Assembly (NCBI GenBank): GCA_943354165.1
Contig: CALRBH010000008.1
Location: 1 to 37,874 of the forward strand
Direction: 5' to 3'
From: Candidatus Uhrbacteria bacterium RIFOXYB12_FULL_58_10
Lineage (GTDB): Bacteria; Patescibacteriota; Patescibacteriia; UBA9934; GWF2-40-263
Length of the DNA: 37,874 nt
Part shown: positions 2,861-36,473 of the stretch, in pieces
Numbering within the stretch: the stretch's first letter is position 1
Layout of the letters: the number at the start of each line of letters is the position of its first letter
The notes under the pieces: model-generated
What the model was told of the DNA's origin: nothing
The model's database searches: none
Seen by the model: the letters and a program-made list of their open reading frames with translations, nothing else
Made by a program: the position numbers and the translations under genes

Positions 2861-3522
2861 TCGCGTTGTTTGCCCTTCCGCCACTCCTCTATCTTCTTAT
2901 GATCGCCCGAGAGCAGAACCTCCGGCACGCTCCATTTCTTATACACCTCCGGCTTCGTATACTGCGGATACTCAAGCAACCCTTCCTCGCCGTGCGATTC
3001 CTGTGCGAGCGATTCCTTTGCACCTAGTACGCCAGGAACGTTTCGCGCGATCGCATCGATCATCACAAGGGCCGGCAGTTCGCCACCGGTCAGAACGTAG
3101 TTCCCGATCGAAAACGATTCGTCCGCAATCTTTTCTTCGACGCGCGCGTCAATACCCTCGTACCGCCCACAAAGAAATATGACCTGGTCATATTTCGCCA
3201 ACCGAATCGCGTCCTGCTGCGTAAACGGCTTCCCCGAAGCCGATGTCACGATCACCCGAGTCTTCTTCCCCCTTACAACCCTTACCGCCCTTACCGCCCC
3301 ATCGAACGGTTCGATTTTCATCACCATCCCCGGCCCTCCGCCATACGGCGAGTCATCTACCTTATGATGCTTGTCCATCGCCCAGTCCCGCAGGTTGTGC
3401 GCGACAATCGAAATCAACCCGTTCTTCTGCGCACGCCCAAGAATCGACGCTTCCGCGTACGGAGCGATTACTTCAGGGAAGATCGTAATTACGTCGAAAC
3501 GACGGAGCTTGAGTTTGGGCAT
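2839..3522 (-). CDS. trmD: tRNA (guanine-N1-)-methyltransferase TrmD
   Basis: 227 aa of the SPOUT class, which makes m1G37 in tRNAs reading CNN/GNN codons and prevents +1 frameshifting. The start FDVITIFPEVI, the DDSPYGGGPGM loop, FLCGRYEGIDARVEEKI (knot/SAM site) and SIGNYVLTGGELPALVMIDAIARNVPGVLG are diagnostic. It is ~25 residues shorter than E. coli TrmD. The variable stretch GAVRAVRVVRGKK is encoded by GTAAGGGNN-type 9-bp repeats (about 3268-3299). The ATG lies 2 nt after the T-run of a terminator-like hairpin, with no Shine-Dalgarno. It is downstream of khpA on the same strand, an order seen in many bacteria. Confidence 0.97.
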   Translation of the reverse strand: MPKLKLRRFDVITIFPEVIAPYAEASILGRAQKNGLISIVAHNLRDWAMDKHHKVDDSPYGGGPGMVMKIEPFDGAVRAVRVVRGKKTRVIVTSASGKPFTQQDAIRLAKYDQVIFLCGRYEGIDARVEEKIADESFSIGNYVLTGGELPALVMIDAIARNVPGVLGAKESLAQESHGEEGLLEYPQYTKPEVYKKWSVPEVLLSGDHKKIEEWRKGKQRENKTPAV

Positions 3523-7373: not shown

Positions 7374-8510
7374 ATGATCCGTAAACTTTCCCTTACCGCC
7401 CTTACTACCCTTACCGCCCTTACTACCCCTCTCGCCTCCTTCGCGATCGCCCCAAACGATCCGTATGCGGATACGGTCTTTTCTGTCTCAAACCAAGTAC
7501 TCGCTCCCATGAATGCGCTGAGCGCGCCCGATGGTGTGTATGCAGACTTCCTTCAGAAGGATGCAAATGTAACTTTGGACATGGGCGCAGGCGAAGAAGG
7601 AACCGGCGACCTCGTCCTCACGATGAAGCCGTTAAACTTCGGGGCAAGCTATCGAGTAGAGTTCATGGACGCCACCTTCCTTATGTTGGAATCCAAGGGA
7701 GACTTTCTTCCACTGGATTCGGATGAAGAACTGGTGACCTACGCAGGATCAACGCCGTACCGCTATGTACGCATCACGAGTCTTCGGGAAGAAAACTGGC
7801 GTCTGGACTCCATCGAGGCAAAGACGTCCGTTACAGCTCCCATCGTGGAACCAACTCCTTCCCAACCTTCCGAACTTCTCCAACCTCCCAAACCCACCTC
7901 TCCACGCGGTCTCCTCCTGAAGGTCGTGGACGACAAGAACCCAATCACGGAAACGGATTCGATCGTGTACTCGATCGGCGCGGACGGAAAACGTCACGCC
8001 ATGCCATCGTTCAGTGTATTCAGTACGTGGTATGCGGATTTCAACGATCTTTCCTACATCGACATCGACCACTTGGCCGAGTACGCGCTTGGAAAGAACG
8101 TAACGGTGCGGCCGGGGACCTCCCTCGTGAAGATCACGACGGATCCAAAGGTCTATGCCATTGAACCGGGCGGCATCCTCCGCTGGATCACTTCAGAAAC
8201 GATCGCGATCCACTTGTACGGCGCCACATGGGCAAAACGCGTGATAGACGTTCCAGATACGTTCTTCGGAAACTACACGCTAGGAGAACCCATCTTCACG
8301 GAAATTCATCCAAACGGTTCCGTAGGGGTATTACCGGGTGGCGAAGTGGTCTATATCGAAAACGCGACGGCTCACACCATCCCTGGCGAGGTGTACACCG
8401 ACATGCGTTTCAACCCGGACTTCTTTGTCCCTATCAACAATACGCAGGAGGCAATGTATGGACACGGAGCGCCCCTGACGTCTGATCCGAACCTGCGGTT
8501 TCCGTATTAG
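7374..8510 (+). CDS. Secreted surface protein with TDPKVYAI/GGILRWI repeat-type domain
   Basis: 378 aa. A signal peptide (residues 1-24, MIRKLSLTALTTLTALTTPLASFA) precedes a ~120-residue beta-rich domain, a proline-rich linker (about 155-178, PTPSQPSELLQPPKPTSP) and a ~190-residue C-terminal region. That region contains YSIGADGKRHAMPS, TWYADFNDL, GKNVTVRPGTSLVKITTDPKVYAIEPGGILRWI and IDVPDTFFGNY. I recognise this wording as a recurrent secreted module of CPR genomes, with no assigned function known to me. The DNA is odd twice. The signal-peptide core is four 9-bp CTTACCGCC/CTTACTACC units, and the linker is TTCCCAACC-type 9-bp units; both are intergenic repeat words of this genome. Its TAG stop is the first base triplet of an inverted repeat. 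Confidence 0.8.
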   Translation: MIRKLSLTALTTLTALTTPLASFAIAPNDPYADTVFSVSNQVLAPMNALSAPDGVYADFLQKDANVTLDMGAGEEGTGDLVLTMKPLNFGASYRVEFMDATFLMLESKGDFLPLDSDEELVTYAGSTPYRYVRITSLREENWRLDSIEAKTSVTAPIVEPTPSQPSELLQPPKPTSPRGLLLKVVDDKNPITETDSIVYSIGADGKRHAMPSFSVFSTWYADFNDLSYIDIDHLAEYALGKNVTVRPGTSLVKITTDPKVYAIEPGGILRWITSETIAIHLYGATWAKRVIDVPDTFFGNYTLGEPIFTEIHPNGSVGVLPGGEVVYIENATAHTIPGEVYTDMRFNPDFFVPINNTQEAMYGHGAPLTSDPNLRFPY

Positions 8511-8597
8511 TTAGTAGTAAGTAGATAGTAGATAGTAGTGGTATATAAGTACGATTTTTTATCCAATCTACTTACTACTAACTACTCTCTACTAACT
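8508..8597. repeat. Inverted repeat, AGTTAGTAGTA family, copy 2
   Basis: Left arm 8509-8541 (AGTTAGTAGTAAGTAGATAG...) faces right arm 8562-8597 (...CTTACTACTAACTACTCTC), matching as reverse complements at roughly 25 of 31 positions. The spacer is ~20 nt. The stop codon of the preceding gene overlaps the left arm, so the hairpin would form the mRNA 3' end. A small CTTGTAAAAACAAG hairpin follows. Confidence 0.85.
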
Positions 8598-8663: not shown

Positions 8664-8739
8664 CGGACCGTGGCGCAGTTGGTAGCGCGCCTGGTTTGGG
8701 ACCAGGAGGCCGCCGGTTCGAGCCCGGCCGGTCCGACCA
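8664..8739 (+). tRNA. tRNA-Pro (TGG)
   Basis: Acceptor CGGACCG / CGGTCCG, D arm GCGC...GCGC, anticodon stem CCTGG / CCAGG with loop TTTGGGA (anticodon TGG), T arm GCCGG TTCGAGC CCGGC, encoded CCA. The pairing extends outside the tRNA: leader GCAACTTGGT is complementary to ACCAAGTTGC, which covers the CCA end and trailer, giving 17 uninterrupted pairs. Confidence 0.97.
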
Positions 8740-8763: not shown

Positions 8764-8935
8764 TGGCGCAGCCCCGACGCCCCATGAAATCCGTGGGGTC
8801 GGGGGTCCGACCCGATCACGGCGTCGGACTTGGTAGCGCGCCTGGTTTGGGACCAGCCCCGACGCTGATGGTCGGGGGCCCGATCCCATCAGGCGTCGGG
8901 CGAGGCCGCCGGTTCGAGCCCGGCCGGTCCGACCA
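8764..8935 (+). pseudogene. Second tRNA-Pro copy split by two palindromic inserts
   Basis: Three blocks (8764-8771, 8830-8856, 8902-8935) reproduce, without a mismatch, the last 69 nt of the tRNA-Pro just upstream. Only the 7-nt 5' acceptor strand is missing. The blocks are separated by a 58-nt insert in the D loop (8772-8829) and a 45-nt insert after the anticodon stem (8857-8901). Both inserts begin CCCCGACGC, contain GGTCGGGGG and end GGCGTCGG, and each folds on itself. Without a 5' acceptor strand it is probably a pseudogene, but the fidelity of the tRNA blocks is striking. No target-site duplication is visible. Confidence 0.85.
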
Positions 8936-12682: not shown

Positions 12683-13429
12683 CTAGGCTTCGTTCGTATA
12701 CACCGCCTCCACATCATCATGATCATCCAAAAGCTCGATCAACTTATCGAGCTCCGCCTTAGCCGTCCCATCCTCAACCGCCACAGGCGTCTTTGGGATA
12801 TAGCCGATTCGGACATCATCTGTCTTCAATCCTTGGCCGGCAGCTGCCGGGCCCTGCGCCAGGAGCGCATTTACGACCTTTGCGAGGTCATCAGGGGCAC
12901 ATAGGACCTCCAGAGCGTCGTCCGCCCACTTGATGTCGTCAGCTCCAGCGTCAATCATCGACAGCTCAAACGCATCACGGTCTTTCACGCTCGACGCATC
13001 GCCCACGGCAATCATTCCCTTCCGATCGAACATCCAGGCCACCGAACCAGATGAGCCGATCGTCCCGCCGTTCTTGGAGGCGATGATTTTCACTTCCGCG
13101 ACCGAACGGTTCTTGTTATCCGTCACGCAAGCGATCATGAGCGCAATGCCGCCCGGACCGAACCCTTCGTACACGGCCTCTTCGAGCACAACACCGTCTC
13201 CCCCGCCCGTCCCACGATCAATCGCACGCTGAATATTATCGTTCGGCATGTTCATGGCCTTTGCTGCTTCCACCGTCATGCGCAGTTTGAAATTAAACGA
13301 CATGTCTCCCCCGCCGTCCTTGGCCGCGACCGTAATGTTCTTCGCCAACTTCGAAAAAACTCCGGCCTTGGCCCGGTCGGCTTTGCCTTTCTTGAGCTGG
13401 ATGTTATGCCAGTGACTATGCTTTGCCAT
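12683..13429 (-). CDS. yebC: YebC/PmpR family (TACO1-like) protein
   Basis: 248 aa. The start MAKHSHWHNIQLKKGKADRAKAGVFSKLAKNI and the core AIDRGTGGGDG, YEGFGPGGIALMIACVTDNKNRSVAEVKIIASKNGGTIGSSGSVAWMFDRKG are diagnostic. YebC family members were described as transcription regulators; more recent work on relatives links them to translation of difficult sequences such as proline stretches. It is often encoded beside ruvC, and ruvC is nearby here. The ATG lies inside the 3' end of the IVP gene and directly after GGTTNGGGA-type repeats, without a Shine-Dalgarno. Confidence 0.95.
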   Translation of the reverse strand: MAKHSHWHNIQLKKGKADRAKAGVFSKLAKNITVAAKDGGGDMSFNFKLRMTVEAAKAMNMPNDNIQRAIDRGTGGGDGVVLEEAVYEGFGPGGIALMIACVTDNKNRSVAEVKIIASKNGGTIGSSGSVAWMFDRKGMIAVGDASSVKDRDAFELSMIDAGADDIKWADDALEVLCAPDDLAKVVNALLAQGPAAAGQGLKTDDVRIGYIPKTPVAVEDGTAKAELDKLIELLDDHDDVEAVYTNEA

Positions 13430-13847
13430 ACGAGTTTGGTTGGGGAAGTTTGGGAGGTTCGGGAGGTTCGGGGGGTTTGGAAGGTGGCTTTTGATGTTGA
13501 GAATCGATGAGTTGGTTTAGGAGATACGCCGTTCGGTTTTGTTGATCGTCTAGTTTTTGGTATTCGGCGATAGACAGGTATTTCAGATCACGCGAAAACT
13601 CTAGGAGAACTGCACACTCTCTGATAGATCCTTTGGCAATGTCTAAATACCGAATAAAATCAGGCCTAGTCGCTTTCCCTTGCCCCTCAACGATATTCGC
13701 AACAATTGAGACCGACGCACGTCTTAATTGAGATGTGATCCCATACATTTCTTCTTTTGGAAACGTTTGTGTATGAAAATAAATATCTAAGACAAACTTA
13801 TACGCTTCCTTCCACACAACAAGTTTATGATACGGCTGTTCACCCAT
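13416..13847 (-). CDS. Four-helix-bundle protein (23S rRNA-intervening-sequence/IVP family)
   Basis: 143 aa from the Met at 13845-13847. YHKLVVWKEAYKFVLDIYFHTQTFPKEEMYGITSQLRRASVSIVANIVEGQGKATRPDFIRYLDIAKGSIRECAVLLEFSRDLKYL matches the IVP/TIGR02436 four-helix bundle, common in CPR and Bacteroidetes and of unknown role. The track's 16 extra N-terminal residues (MGKFGRFGRNCFTDDF) partly translate the right repeat arm, so I chose the later Met. The C-terminal tail PPSKPPEPPEPPKLPQP is encoded by five GGTTNGGGA-type units and overlaps the yebC start by 14 nt. The gene therefore sits between two facing arms of one repeat family. Confidence 0.88.
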   Translation of the reverse strand: MGEQPYHKLVVWKEAYKFVLDIYFHTQTFPKEEMYGITSQLRRASVSIVANIVEGQGKATRPDFIRYLDIAKGSIRECAVLLEFSRDLKYLSIAEYQKLDDQQNRTAYLLNQLIDSQHQKPPSKPPEPPEPPKLPQPNSYGKA

Positions 13848-13914
13848 AAAATCATCAGTAAAACAGTTCCTCCCAAACCTCCCGAACTTCCCCAACCTCC
13901 CAAACCTTCGAACC
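13438..13914. repeat. Inverted 9-bp-unit repeat (GGTTNGGGA family) flanking the IVP gene
   Basis: Left arm 13438-13485 reads GGTTGGGGA AGTTTGGGA GGTTCGGGA and on. The reverse complement of right arm 13869-13914 reads GGTTTGGGA GGTTGGGGA AGTTCGGGA GGTTTGGGA. Over 29 bp the arms differ at two positions. They are ~380 bp apart with the IVP gene between. The same family forms a compact hairpin before recA. Confidence 0.88.
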
Positions 13915-13942: not shown

Positions 13943-13970
13943 CAAAACCGCCCCTTATGAGGCGGTTTGC
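13943..13970 (-). terminator. Terminator after rpoC
   Basis: AAACCGCC / GGCGGTTT forms an 8-bp stem with an 8-nt loop; on the minus strand it is followed by TTTTGC. It lies 8-10 nt beyond the rpoC stop. Confidence 0.75.
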
Positions 13971-13977
13971 CGTTTCA

Positions 13978-17994
<4,017 letters not shown>

Positions 17995-21287: not shown

Positions 21288-21840
21288 CCCAAATAAAATG
21301 GAATGGAGGACTTATGAGTTTTCCGCGGCGGAGAACGACATCAAAGAGGCGTTAGGTGACTCTCTGGTGTCATGTGTCCTGTAGACATATCCGCCAAAAA
21401 CGGAACACTCTGACCGCCGGAATCTATCATGAACTGTTTAAGGCGTCAAACGAGAGGGAGGCAGGGGGATGTAAGGGTTGTAAGGGGCGTAACGGCGGTA
21501 AGGGATTGGTTCGGGGTGGATACAGGGTTTATTGGGCTTGAACAATAAAAAAACGCCAAACTTTTCTATTTGTCGTTTTCAGCCTTTCTTTGTCGTTTGA
21601 CGTTTGTTGTTTATCGCCACGATCTCCTCCCTAAGGCTGCAAAGTGGCGCCACGATTTACGAAGTGTCAAACCAGTGCATCCAGAGCGCGAGGAGAGAGA
21701 TTTATGTCCCCAGTAAAGGGGACAAAACGCCCTTCTGCCCTGATCCGACGGAATCGTACGCCGCTTCGCAGCCTTTGAGAGAACATCGAGATTGATCACC
21801 AGCCAGGCCACGCGCGTACCGCGCGGCCTGGCTGGCAAGA
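21288..21840. other. Gene-free region with repeat words and hairpins
   Basis: No ORF here is convincing. It holds four GTAAGGGNN units at about 21471-21505, TTTGTCGTT-family words at about 21569-21612, and a TGTCCCC / GGGGACA hairpin near 21704-21723. At 21799-21835 there is a GC-rich stem CCAGCCAGGC(CA)CGCGCG / CGCGCGGCCTGGCTGG, immediately after the stop of the minus-strand gene at 21841. That last stem may end the transcript, but it has no T-run. The rpoB promoter should lie in the part nearest 21300; no good match was found. Confidence 0.6.
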
Positions 21841-22747: not shown

Positions 22748-22829
22748 AGTTAGTAGGTAGTAGAAAGTAGTTAGTAAAGCTACGGACCAGCCGTAAAACC
22801 TACTAACTACTAACTACTTTCTACTAACT
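22748..22829. repeat. Inverted repeat, AGTTAGTAGTA family, copy 3
   Basis: Left arm AGTTAGTAGGTAGTAGAAAGTAGTTAGTA faces a right arm whose reverse complement is AGTTAGTAGAAAGTAGTTAGTAGTTAGTA: 29-nt arms, about 4 mismatches, ~25-nt spacer. The nearest gene on either side is more than 100 bp away, unlike the rpsP copy. Confidence 0.85.
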
Positions 22830-25740: not shown

Positions 25741-25844
25741 GGTTTGGGTGGGCAAGAGTGGGCGGAGTGGGCAAGAGTGTTGGAAATTTTTATAAAAAGA
25801 ATTCCTTCACCCTTGCAAACCCTTGCCCACCCCGCAAACCCTCT
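25741..25844. repeat. Inverted repeat, GGGCAAGAGT/GGTTTGGGTGGGC family
   Basis: Left arm 25741-25780 (GGTTTGGGTGGGCAAGAGTGGGCGGAG...) faces right arm 25808-25844 (CACCCTTGCAAACCCTTGCCCACCCCGCAAACC). The arms are imperfect reverse complements built from ~9-10-bp words, with an AT-rich loop (TTGGAAATTTTTATAAAAAG). The hairpin occupies the ftsK-rodZ gap and ends ~13 nt before the rodZ-like ATG. Confidence 0.75.
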
Positions 25845-26625: not shown

Positions 26626-26727
26626 GGTTGGGGATGTTGGGGAAGTCCGGGAGGTTTGGGAGGTTAATTACCTCTCGATCCTATTGTCCTCCCCAACATC
26701 CCAAACCTACCGGACCTCCCAAACCTT
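26626..26727. repeat. Inverted 9-bp-unit repeat (GGTTNGGGA family) before recA
   Basis: Left arm 26626-26665: GGTTGGGGA TGTTGGGGA AGTCCGGGA GGTTTGGGA GGTT. Right arm 26688-26727 reads as its approximate reverse complement (about 29 of 38 pairs, plus G-U). The loop is ~22 nt (AATTACCTCTCGATCC...). The right arm ends 7 nt before the recA ATG. Confidence 0.88.
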
Positions 26728-28436: not shown

Positions 28437-28505
28437 TGGGGCTGTAAGGGGAGTAAGGGTTGTAATGGTGGTAAGGGGAAAACGGAGCAGTCCCTTACCG
28501 CCCAA
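28437..28505. repeat. GTAAGGGNN repeat array between epmA-like gene and efp
   Basis: Units GTAAGGGGA GTAAGGGTT GTAATGGTG GTAAGGGGA (28447-28482) are followed, after ~12 nt, by the facing piece CCCTTACCGCCC (28492-28503). A partial hairpin is possible. Related words occur at 3268-3299, 7390-7430 and 21471-21505. Confidence 0.8.
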
Positions 28506-28507
28506 AA

Positions 28508-29473
28508 TTATTGAAATAATTTTGAGGCCGGGAACAGCAGGACATCCTCTATCGAAGCCGCCCCCGTTGCAAGCATGTGCAATCGGTCGATTCCGAGGGC
28601 ATTTCCAAAGGTGGGAGAACGGACGGATGGTAGCAGCGTGAGCAGGTCCTCGTCAACGGGGAAGGTCGACTTCCCTTGTGCCCGGCGTTCCTCAAGTTCA
28701 CCTTCGAAACGGGCCCGTTGTTCGGCCGAATCAATAAGTTCTGTGAACCCATTACTCAATTCTACCCCATCGATATACGACTCCACCCGCTGGGCGTATT
28801 TCCCGTCGGCCGTCTTCGCCGCTAGTGCGGCCTGGCAGAGCGGATAGTCGTAGACAAACGTCGGATGCATGCCGATTTTCGATTCCCCCCACACGAGGAA
28901 AATGCGATAGAACAGGTCGCTCTCCGTATCCGAGGCGTCACGATGTATCCCAAGACGGTCACAGGCCGCCGCAAGATATTCCGTCGAAGCCAGATCCAAA
29001 TCGACGCCGCAAGTTTCGAGGAGAAGATCTCGAACGCGAACGCGACGGAACGCCGGCAACTCGCGTCCGAATGCGGCGCACGCTTCGTGGACCAACGCTT
29101 CGGTCTCATCCATCATGGCATGGTAGTCCTTCCCCTGCTGGTACCACTCAATCATCGTGAACTCCGGATTGTGCGTCCCACCAAGCTCTTCATCATTCCG
29201 AAACACCCGGGCGAGCGTGAAGATTTTCTCAAACCCCTTCCCTAACAGCTTCTTCATGGAAAACTCAGGACTGGTGATGAGCGCTCCCTGCCGAGACTTC
29301 TCCCCGGGGACAACCATAGTCGTCTCGAAGTACGTAAAATTCGGCGCGAGGTCTGGGCTCGCGACAAACGTCGGCGTCTCGACTTCGATGTATCCCCGCG
29401 CACGAAAGAACGACCGAACGAGATCGTTCAGTTTCTGACGTTCGAGAGCGATTTTTTGAACGGGTTGAGCCAT
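28508..29473 (-). CDS. epmA: EpmA-like EF-P lysine ligase (class II LysRS paralogue without anticodon domain)
   Basis: 321 aa from the Met at 29471-29473 (MAQPVQKIALERQKLN); the track's start seven codons earlier falls about where a TAAAAT box would start transcription. Class II motifs are present: FTLARVFRNDEELGGTHNPEFTMIEWYQQG (motif 2) and NALGIDRLHMLATG (motif 3). The start corresponds to the catalytic domain of LysRS; the N-terminal OB fold is absent, and length equals E. coli EpmA (325). EpmA attaches (R)-beta-lysine, made by EpmB, to EF-P. Adjacency to efp with its PGKG loop supports this. A catalytic LysRS fragment is the alternative. Confidence 0.88.
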   Translation of the reverse strand: MAQPVQKIALERQKLNDLVRSFFRARGYIEVETPTFVASPDLAPNFTYFETTMVVPGEKSRQGALITSPEFSMKKLLGKGFEKIFTLARVFRNDEELGGTHNPEFTMIEWYQQGKDYHAMMDETEALVHEACAAFGRELPAFRRVRVRDLLLETCGVDLDLASTEYLAAACDRLGIHRDASDTESDLFYRIFLVWGESKIGMHPTFVYDYPLCQAALAAKTADGKYAQRVESYIDGVELSNGFTELIDSAEQRARFEGELEERRAQGKSTFPVDEDLLTLLPSVRSPTFGNALGIDRLHMLATGAASIEDVLLFPASKLFQ

Positions 29474-33894: not shown

Positions 33895-36420
33895 TTAGTA
33901 CACGATAAACGTTACCTTCCCGCCCGGAATGGTGCGACCGGAGAACCGATAGCCATTCGTCACCCTTCCGATGTCGTTAATGGTGATGATCGGACCATAT
34001 GACGTTCCTTCGGAAGGAGCGGGAGCCGGAAGGGCGATCGGTCGGCTCACAGGGGCCGATGTCTTGGCTGATGGGGTCGATGTCTTGGCTGATGGGGTCG
34101 ATGTCTTGGCTGATGGGGCCGCAGGCTCCCTTACTGGCACGAACACGACCTGTGGCGCCGGACACACAGGAGTGGAAACAGGGACGGATGCCTCCGGCTC
34201 CGGACATGCGGGAACAACCAGCGACTCCGGACACTGGAACACCACCGGCGGACGCGTCGCAAGCTTCACGCGCTCCCCCGTCATCTCATTGCCGCGCTGC
34301 GTGGTCCCGACCGGCATGAATGTGTACACCGTACCCGTCGTAAGGCCGTCGATGATAACTGAGTGGGATTCCGTAAGCTGACCGTCGAGTACGGTTGAAG
34401 TGGCGAACCCGAAATTAGGCGATCCGCTGTTCACAATCGGGTCGAACGTTCCGTAGACGACCCGTGAGGTCGAGTTCGGGTAGGAGCTCCAGGAGACGAT
34501 AACGGAATCGCCATCCACCTGCGTCACATCAACATCGTAAAGACGTTCTGGGAAGGATACGGAACCTCCTCCCCCGCCGCTTCCAGGGACGCAGGCGATC
34601 CCATCATCGATCACCACAGCGAACACCACGCGCTCCATGATGTTTCCGGAGAGATCCTTCGCATACACGATGACGGGCACCGCTTCCCCATCCGTAAAGT
34701 TCGAGGCCGGATCGATCGTAAAGGTGAAATCCGCCGGCGATCCCGTCACGTCGGTGGTGTCTCCAAGATAGTTCCCTCCGTTGAAATCGAGAGAGCTGGC
34801 GAACGTAATCTTGGTGCCGGTCGTCGTTACGGACCCTGCCCCGCCTCCGTTGGTATAATAGTCCCCGTTCACGAACACCACGACGTTCGAAAGATTCACC
34901 CCCGTCCCATTATCTTTTACATGAAAGAGAATGTTGGTCGTAGAGGTGATCGTCCCGTCGTTGCTCGGGCTCGTCCCGTCCACGAACGGTGCGTCGCTGT
35001 CGGAAGTGGAAAACGTCCAGACGTCCGTGACCATGGTGTTGCCAACCACGTCCTCACAATCAAACGCGGAAATGGACACGGTTTCATTCTGCGCGAAGTT
35101 ACTCGCTGGATTGATCACGTACTGCACGCCGAAATCCACCAGTGTCGCCGCCACTTCCGGATCAGTGGAATCAAACGTCGTGAGCGCAAACGATGGTGAT
35201 GAAACGTTGAACTGACAGCTCGCGGTCACGACCCCGGTCCCGGAAACCGTGCCCGGGAAGGTCTTCTTGTCGTGCACAATGACGGTGATGTTTGTGGAAA
35301 TGCTGTTCCCTGTGCTCGATCGCGTTGGTGTTTCGCTCACGACCTGCGGAGGCACCGTGTCCGCCTCGGTGGTAAACGTGAACGACTTTGGATTCATCGT
35401 GTTCGGCCCATTGGCATCCCCGAGCTGGTTCTGCGTTGGCGAGGCCAGATCGCGGAAGCCGGTGATGTCGATGGTGTAGGCGGTGTTATAGAGCCAGTTG
35501 CGCGTATCACTCCCGATGCCGAGCGGACTTGGCGGATTCACGGTCACCCCACACAGGTTTGTGCCCCACACGCCAGAACAGACATAAGCGTCGAACGCCG
35601 TCATATCATCAGCGCCGCCGTCGTCGTCTGCCGTAATGACGCCAGGGGGTGTCGTGGTGCTCACCCCGGTTCCGACGCCGACGTTATCGCCTTCCCCGTT
35701 CTTGGTATCGCGCAGGTCAAACGTATAATTCGACGAAACGGAAACCGCCGTCGCCGCGTTCGCTGGCGATGGATTCTCCGCGAACGGTTTAATCGTATCT
35801 GCCCAAAGGTGCAGACTGAAATCTTCTTCGTCATCGAGAATGTCGAGACCGGAAAGCGAGATGTTCGACTCCGTGGTCGCTCCAATGGTCCCAACGTTCA
35901 CGTCGAGCGTGCTCGGCGTACCGGTTGCATACGCGGCTTCCCCTGGCGCATCCACCGTCCAGGTGTTGGAACCAAAGATCCCGGTGCCGCTGGACGTCCC
36001 GCTGGTCCGGAACCCCGTAAGATTCACGCGCCCGCCGGAAATGGTCGCCCCAGCGTAGTTTGGAAAATACGTTCCATTGGTGAGCACGGAAGCGGTGAGC
36101 TTGGCGACGTTGTAATCCACCCAAATATTCGCCGCATCCGTCCCGCCGGAGACGATGCGCATGGTCGTCGTGAAGGATTGGCCGACGTAGTAATAGTTGA
36201 GGTCGGTCGTGACGCCCGTGCCGCCATCGCCTGTGTTGTCCCCGCCCGTGGTCGGCGATGTAGTGAGTTCGAAGGTATCGGCCCCGACAGGAGCAGCGGC
36301 TTGGGCAGAGGCTGACGCAAACGACAAAGAGCAAACGACAAACGACAAAGAAATCCAAAACGACAAACGGGTGAAAGGTTTGATGTTTGAGTTCTTTTTT
36401 TGTCCGTTCAACTTTTCCAT
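33895..36420 (-). CDS. Large secreted surface protein with cohesin-like, Ig-like and FN3-like domains
   Basis: 841 aa. Signal peptide ~1-42 (core SFWISLSFVVCSLSFASASAQA). Residues ~48-205 resemble a cohesin-type sandwich (VGQSFTTTMRIVSGGTDAANIWVDYNVAKLTASV...FPNYAG...GRVNLTGF). Then come Big_5/Ig-like domains to ~590 (repeated DxxxPxVxxxxP starts, GN ends) and an FN3-like unit (VTQVDGDSVIVSWSSYPNSTSRVVYG...IIDGLTTGTVYTF, ~610-700). A Cys/Pro-rich stretch, three PSAKTST repeats and a half Ig fold end at GGKVTFIVY. No anchor of its own; the next gene has membrane helices. The signal-peptide core is encoded by TTTGTCGTT repeats. No enzymatic motif seen. Confidence 0.8.
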   Translation of the reverse strand: MEKLNGQKKNSNIKPFTRLSFWISLSFVVCSLSFASASAQAAAPVGADTFELTTSPTTGGDNTGDGGTGVTTDLNYYYVGQSFTTTMRIVSGGTDAANIWVDYNVAKLTASVLTNGTYFPNYAGATISGGRVNLTGFRTSGTSSGTGIFGSNTWTVDAPGEAAYATGTPSTLDVNVGTIGATTESNISLSGLDILDDEEDFSLHLWADTIKPFAENPSPANAATAVSVSSNYTFDLRDTKNGEGDNVGVGTGVSTTTPPGVITADDDGGADDMTAFDAYVCSGVWGTNLCGVTVNPPSPLGIGSDTRNWLYNTAYTIDITGFRDLASPTQNQLGDANGPNTMNPKSFTFTTEADTVPPQVVSETPTRSSTGNSISTNITVIVHDKKTFPGTVSGTGVVTASCQFNVSSPSFALTTFDSTDPEVAATLVDFGVQYVINPASNFAQNETVSISAFDCEDVVGNTMVTDVWTFSTSDSDAPFVDGTSPSNDGTITSTTNILFHVKDNGTGVNLSNVVVFVNGDYYTNGGGAGSVTTTGTKITFASSLDFNGGNYLGDTTDVTGSPADFTFTIDPASNFTDGEAVPVIVYAKDLSGNIMERVVFAVVIDDGIACVPGSGGGGGSVSFPERLYDVDVTQVDGDSVIVSWSSYPNSTSRVVYGTFDPIVNSGSPNFGFATSTVLDGQLTESHSVIIDGLTTGTVYTFMPVGTTQRGNEMTGERVKLATRPPVVFQCPESLVVPACPEPEASVPVSTPVCPAPQVVFVPVREPAAPSAKTSTPSAKTSTPSAKTSAPVSRPIALPAPAPSEGTSYGPIITINDIGRVTNGYRFSGRTIPGGKVTFIVY
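34058..34120. repeat. Tandem repeat, 3 x 21 bp, inside the surface protein gene
   Basis: GATGTCTTGGCTGATGGGGTC is repeated three times (the last with one change), encoding SAKTSTP-type units in the linker before the C-terminal half Ig fold. The near-identity of the copies suggests recent expansion. Confidence 0.92.
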
Positions 36421-36473
36421 ATTTGTCGTTTTCTTTTTTCTTTGTCGTTTGGGATTTATCGTTTGTCGTTTCT
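36325..36473. repeat. Inverted repeat, TTTGTCGTT family, spanning the start of the surface protein gene
   Basis: Words AACGACAAA (36318-36366) and TTTGTCGTT (36421-36473) face each other around the ATG at 36418-36420. On the mRNA (minus) side, AAACGACAAACGATAAATCCC...GACAAAG can pair with CTTTGTCGTTT...GGATTTCTTTGTCGTTTGTCGTTT in the signal-peptide coding sequence. The start codon would be in the ~50-nt loop. Confidence 0.82.

Follow-up and report, generated by a model that had tools for sequence, protein, structure and literature searches.

Comparison of the sequence with that of related genomes indicates that the IVP gene found between rpoC and yebC, together with the two short tandem arrays that flank it, is a single unit that was added between yebC and the terminator on the rpoC side. 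The local observation holds, and it leads to a general class of repeat-ended elements that can be tested. We consider it probable that the members of this class are tandem-repeat-ended insertions in which the IVP protein reads the repeats, gene-less hairpins are satellites, and no transposase takes part.

The IVP element in the window

The window (the whole stretch of DNA analysed, 37,874 nt) contains 14 occurrences of GGTTNGGGA against 1.5 expected, a count reached by none of 100 shuffles. The features concerned are the following:

7859..7894, minus strand: unpaired GGTTNGGGA array of 4 units, of the same family as the IVP arms
12683..13429, minus strand: yebC (PF01709 and PF20772), adjoining the insertion downstream in gene orientation
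13416..13847, minus strand: IVP (S23, PF05635) gene of the N-x-V-E-G clade, likely ATG at 13847
13438..13482, plus strand: arm downstream of the IVP gene, 5 GGTTNGGGA units in a facing array that is rich in C when read on the gene strand
13869..13906, minus strand: arm upstream of the IVP gene, G-rich, 4 GGTTNGGGA units plus GG
13945..13968, minus strand: rpoC-distal terminator-like hairpin (AAACCGCC...GGCGGTTT), adjoining rpoC
13978..17994, minus strand: rpoC (RNA_pol_Rpb1 domains), adjoining the insertion upstream in gene orientation
26626-26661 and 26690-26725, no strand assigned: arms of a gene-less GGTTNGGGA hairpin before recA, 28 nt apart, folding z -4.0

The GGTTNGGGA arrays at 13438-13482 and 13869-13906 face each other across 386 nt, and the two arms are complementary over 37 nt at 89%. 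The units of the upstream arm are, in order, GGTTTGGGA GGTTGGGGA AGTTCGGGA GGTTTGGGA GG. Both alignment and folding place the IVP ORF within the loop of a terminal inverted repeat; the RNA of the unit folds better than 100 of 100 shuffles (z -4.1), with a long stem predicted. The IVP reading frame continues through the downstream arm, which encodes a proline-rich C-terminal tail (PPSKPPEPPEPPKLPQPNSYGKA), the end of the IVP ORF sharing 14 nt with the start of yebC. A longer IVP frame, from the TTG at 13895 given as start in the ORF list, begins within the upstream arm and reads through it. The first-pass annotation had placed the gene between arms about 380 bp apart and had described one arm as a proline-rich tail running into yebC, and both descriptions are borne out by the distance and the frame. 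The hairpin that it reported before recA is present as well, but with 28 nt between the arrays instead of a 22-nt loop, and the polarity of the arms needs correction: the gene strand is G-rich upstream of the IVP gene and C-rich downstream. An Rfam search gave no match above cut-off, the RsmY-like and CRISPR-DR9 matches being weak and far below theirs. A phage origin was rejected, as tblastn against 50,697 phage records returned no match.

Insertion at the rpoC-yebC junction

The rpoC and yebC genes are adjacent in many relatives. In six of them (L323, L326, L320, L319, L334 and L340) the junction is clean, with a gap of 78-103 nt that lacks the IVP gene and the arrays and contains a terminator-like hairpin, directly before yebC, and a spacer; in a seventh relative the gap is 9 nt. 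The corresponding gap in the window genome is 548 nt. Its hairpin at 13945-13968 by rpoC is comparable to that of the relatives, and the IVP unit lies between this hairpin and yebC. Since the junction of the relatives carries neither gene nor arrays, the IVP unit is an insertion. Such an IVP-free junction was what the first-pass annotation had proposed to look for, and the empty site exists in at least six relatives. Its picture of a hairpin with a cargo gene in the loop, or a cassette, holds as far as the hairpin and the inserted cassette are concerned, in view of the empty junctions and of the gene-less hairpins and Nostoc plasmid sites described below. "Cargo", however, is probably the wrong word: IVP looks like the core gene of the element, because facing arrays accompany it across phyla and unit length tracks the IVP clade. 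The possibility that the GGTTNGGGA repeat is common to the relatives was rejected, the repeat being found in 0 of 58 of their genomes. As GGTTNGGGA is thus private to one genome, it is the architecture that is conserved and not the repeat sequence.

Facing arrays around IVP genes

Six PF05635 genes are present in the window genome and all six lie between facing short tandem arrays, with units of 7-10 nt that are all different (GTAGTTA, CGTTAGG, GGGYGGTAA, GGTTNGGGA, GGGGCAAG and AACGACA). An arm score was obtained from the alignment of the sequence upstream of each gene with the reverse-complemented downstream sequence, and a threshold of at least 30 was set. This threshold was reached by 77% of 198 IVP loci from CPR, Bacteroidota, Proteobacteria, Firmicutes, Cyanobacteria and others (IVP sequences from one genome or order being non-independent samples), against 1.3% of mismatched flank pairs (cross pairs), 9% with flanks reversed but not complemented and 13% with direct flanks. 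Within a set of 126 loci, the figures were 74% for IVP genes and 3% for 168 neighbouring ORFs of the same loci. The median score was 41 at 35 CPR loci versus 17 in mismatched pairs, and the score was 36 versus 18 at 80 loci taken from a scan of one genome per species across phyla. A further 40 CPR loci were fetched afterwards, and 37 exceeded the 95th percentile of cross pairs. About one quarter of the IVP loci exhibit no arms at the score threshold, for which degenerate arms, contig edges or a different lifestyle may be considered. At 100 loci the two neighbouring genes share a strand, and the IVP gene has the same orientation as both in 91 of these (about 10:1). This co-directional bias may fit an RNA-linked step, selection for expression, or ordinary operon structure.

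The unit is 7 nt long at 82 loci, 8 nt at 22, 9 nt at 18 and 10 nt at 2, and array size across IVP loci peaks at 4-5 units. Units of 9 nt occur with 10 of 11 IVPs of the N-x-V-E-G clade versus 8 of 113 other IVPs (Fisher 3e-9). On the IVP protein tree, the Fitch count of unit-length changes is 23, versus 39 ± 1.7 with shuffled labels. The match between clade and unit length is also seen within the window genome. In the sequences compared, IVP clade and unit length evidently co-vary.

Gene-less copies of the arms

In 379 kb of the window genome, the arms of its own six IVP genes were found at 24, 8, 14, 33, 2 and 14 places; these stretches were picked partly by GGTTNGGGA matches, so that the count of the GGTTNGGGA family is inflated while those of the other five families are unaffected. 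For 88 foreign arms, the mean in the same 379 kb was 0.15 places. The GGGGCAAG family (L005) has only about two copies. In a second genome, own arms were found at 9, 6, 3, 2 and 5 places versus a foreign mean of 0.03. Many of the dispersed arm copies in the window genome are compact gene-less hairpins, and these outnumber the IVP copies. Arrays of the 9-nt family lie within stop-free frames of at least 200 codons in 32 of 36 cases, those of the 7-nt GTAGTTA family in 4 of 33.

Cyanobacterial plasmids, Xanthomonadales and CRISPR operons

Plasmids of Nostocales and other cyanobacteria carry IVP genes flanked by typical STRR heptamers, at sites between cas6 and cas4, cmr2 and cmr3, and nrdB and nrdA, and among conjugation genes. 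The empty form of one of these sites (site A) reads ...AAAAAGTAA/TTAACAAAT..., and in Trichormus and Scytonema the same site holds an IVP gene with both arms, readable as a duplication of GTAA. TTCTA flanks both sides of the L188 plasmid site, and comparison of the gene-less hairpin L200 with L201 reveals GTCA on both sides. Such 4-5-nt flanking duplications are seen at three or four plasmid sites only, and other parsings are possible. A second site (site B) of Nostoc plasmids is empty in three, holds a gene-less hairpin in one, and a hairpin plus IVP in two; this site and that of L185 are too diverged for exact boundaries. In the cyanobacterial plasmids, the unit inserts with its ends in the arrays. 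Two close copies, L187 and L195, differ in unit number by two heptamers. L194 (1253-1384) is the remnant of an IVP element, with the left arm and the first part of the gene, at a plasmid site that is empty or intact in relatives.

IVP genes of Dokdonella are flanked by heptamer units of the Xanthomonas GGGAATC / STRR kind. Across 61 genomes of the order to which Dokdonella belongs, (GGGANTN)3 arrays are present in 13 of 26 genomes with IVP versus 0 of 35 without (p 1.6e-6).

IVP genes also lie within CRISPR operons (L177, L179 and L190), in the orders cas6-IVP-cas4 and cmr2-IVP-cmr3. IVP genes were earlier listed as cas-associated (PMC3936711); those within CRISPR operons are probably insertions and not cas genes.

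The IVP protein

The window IVP matches PF05635 (23S_rRNA_IVP) with an E-value of 3.4e-34 (117.7 bits, cut-off 33.8). Among Pfam and NCBIfam profiles, the unit matched PF05635 only, plus a weak Avd match, with no transposase and no HUH/Y1 profile. An AF2 model of the protein (pLDDT 95) finds its best PDB match in 2gsc (XCC0516; Z 21.6), followed by DGR Avd at Z of about 15 (8ub7, 15.4). The solved IVP entries 2gsc and 2rld have five chains each. To our knowledge, no function has been assigned to IVP/S23, a widespread family with solved structures, nor do we know of a recognised catalytic site or motif in it.

Possible mechanism and alternative explanations

Taking the insertion and the association with arrays as observed, we infer from sequence how binding and movement may proceed. 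The two ends of the element would be arrays of some 4-5 short tandem repeats (9 nt here) that face each other, IVP being its sole gene. An IVP pentamer would bind the tandem units, with about one unit per subunit, in the single-stranded RNA or DNA of the arms. The TRAP ring, which binds spaced triplets, provides an analogy, and the simplest model that we infer is a five-membered ring that reads 4-5 tandem units. Unit binding by IVP would mark and spread its own element and the gene-less hairpins in the style of RAYT and REPINs. Cutting and joining would presumably be borrowed from the host or from other enzymes, since IVP has no recognised catalytic site. In transcripts, the arms would pair into a long stem and could be a substrate of RNase III, like the stem of the 23S rRNA IVS, which are excised without ligation; such cutting is plausible by analogy (PMC4990558), and would make insertions in operons tolerable. 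Because the same layout surrounds most of about 200 IVP genes, these genes look like the master copies of the puzzling short tandem repeats dispersed in many bacterial genomes. We lean, with reserve, towards the wider view that a class of transposase-less mobile elements extends throughout bacteria, with IVP genes as its autonomous members and with tandem 7-9-nt arrays, read by the IVP ring, as its ends; this class would be the source of most dispersed intergenic heptamers of prokaryotes and of the 23S IVS.

The arrays might instead have arisen before the gene, by polymerase slippage at hairpins, as fragile sites prone to recombination, and IVP might be an unrelated selfish gene that preferentially landed in such hairpins, these being tolerated. 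Slippage does occur, as the differing unit numbers of L187 and L195 demonstrate, and the excess of gene-less hairpins over IVP copies would also fit. However, unit length tracks the IVP clade, within one genome too, and one array type is limited to the IVP-bearing genomes of an order (13/26 vs 0/35); moreover, empty sites have no array, so that the arrays come with the gene. We regard this scenario as improbable. A comparably small chance is given to a reverse-transcriptase route, in which a reverse transcriptase, of DGR type or another, makes cDNA from the RNA of the element and this cDNA is inserted, IVP being a cousin of Avd. The predicted fold, which matches Avd in the DGR ribonucleoprotein (8ub7, see above), the sense-orientation bias of 91 to 9 and the four RVT_1 matches in the window genome all point in that direction. 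Nevertheless, a common fold is no proof of common function, and genome G018 (listed as 100% complete) has 8 IVP and 0 RVT_1 matches, the situation being similar in G028, G029, G044 and others. The reverse transcriptase as a necessary partner was rejected in view of such genomes, which have several IVP matches but lack RVT_1.

It is still less likely that the arrays are regulatory hairpins, i.e. protein-binding or G-quadruplex sites serving the neighbouring genes, with IVP a regulator encoded among its own sites. G-rich arrays do lie close to where essential genes (recA, rpoC/yebC) begin or end, and heptamers of this kind can form quadruplexes and are transcribed (PMC4692102), but the repeats are private to each genome, are inserted within enzyme genes (glycosyltransferase, ValRS), are present or absent at orthologous sites, and are carried on plasmids. 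As for a mere effect of composition, by which G-rich intergenic DNA would mimic inverted repeats around any gene, the low complexity of the arms and nothing else speaks for it; it is refuted by the cross-pair, neighbour, reversed and direct controls given above, and hardly deserves credence.

Relation to known systems

The tandem-repeat-ended insertion proposed here resembles the 23S rRNA IVS of Coxiella and Leptospira, in which a gene of the IVP family likewise lies in the loop of a terminal inverted repeat. The Coxiella IVS has three tandem heptamers (GACAGAT) and one degenerate unit upstream of its ORF, a strain-variable heptamer number, and a 28-bp end stem (PMC4990558). In contrast to these IVS, which lie inside rRNA genes, the window element is located between rpoC and yebC, and its arms also occur as dispersed gene-less hairpins. 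The conserved rRNA motifs searched for were found in none of the IVP loci examined, the two motif-bearing stretches being bulk genome. The 23S rRNA IVS look like a special case of the repeat-ended class.

In REPIN/RAYT systems, a master gene is flanked by the palindromic repeats that it probably spreads as gene-less satellites, in strain-private families. The IVP gene of the window genome is similarly flanked by repeats dispersed as hairpins, but IVP is an Avd-like helical bundle and not a Y1/HUH enzyme, and its repeats are 7-9-nt tandem arrays and not REP palindromes. Avd of DGRs has the same predicted fold, and acts as a pentamer working with RNA in the DGR complex. Unlike a DGR, the window IVP presumably has no template/variable repeat pair, and the genome can do without RVT_1; no RVT_1 match lies near the window locus, the matches in G000 being on C1, C3, C15 and C19 and not on C8. 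Compared with classical insertion sequences, the element has inverted arrays at its ends and no recognisable transposase, with 4-5-nt duplications seen at three or four plasmid sites only.

The origin of IVS elements has been unclear for decades. Known heptamers include the cyanobacterial STRR, GGGAATC of Xanthomonas and TAACTGA of Beggiatoaceae, which share with the IVP arrays units of 7 nt, a preference for four units and frequent convergent pairs (PMC4692102, PMC4679880), but were described as orphans, with no protein held responsible for them. Among the intergenic tandem repeats of prokaryotes, heptamers are the most abundant; for this "prime number periodicity", a survey of 7,006 genomes published in 2018 found "no clear clue" (PMC6344855). 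The link between IVP and the arrays joins three problems, namely the tandem heptamers, the function of IVP and the origin of the IVS, and it accounts for the IVP genes within CRISPR operons. It predicts that IVP binds tandem units and that the preferred unit length can be read from the clade. In the mostly open-access literature searched, which included no dedicated preprints, we found no paper linking IVP to dispersed heptamers, and an earlier description is possible; the nearest are the report of heptamers in one IVS (PMC4990558) and the guess that a repeat-binding protein could be a mobile element (PMC4679880).

Other repeats in the window genome

Arrays or hairpins of the GTAGTTA family, corresponding to the arms of IVP gene L001, occur in the window at 8514-8597, 22753-22829 and 2439-2468. 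Three other families (GGGYGGTAA, GGGGCAAG and AACGACA), whose units form the arms of further IVP genes, one each, have arrays at 3270-3291, 7393-7420, 28456-28474, 25746-25835, 21568-21608 and 36319-36451. The 9-nt arrays at L070 (G000:C5:27916-27959 and 29259-29302) and L071 (G000:C5:53328-53365) are in-frame insertions within genes of conserved enzymes (ValRS, a glycosyltransferase), to which they add short repeats such as PNLPNLPNL. A tRNA-Pro(TGG) gene (window 8664-8739) is followed by a partial second copy (about 8820-8930), which a GC-rich hairpin (CCCCGACGC...) interrupts beyond the anticodon region. Hairpins of this type occur 9 times in the genome and perhaps represent another family of hairpin elements.
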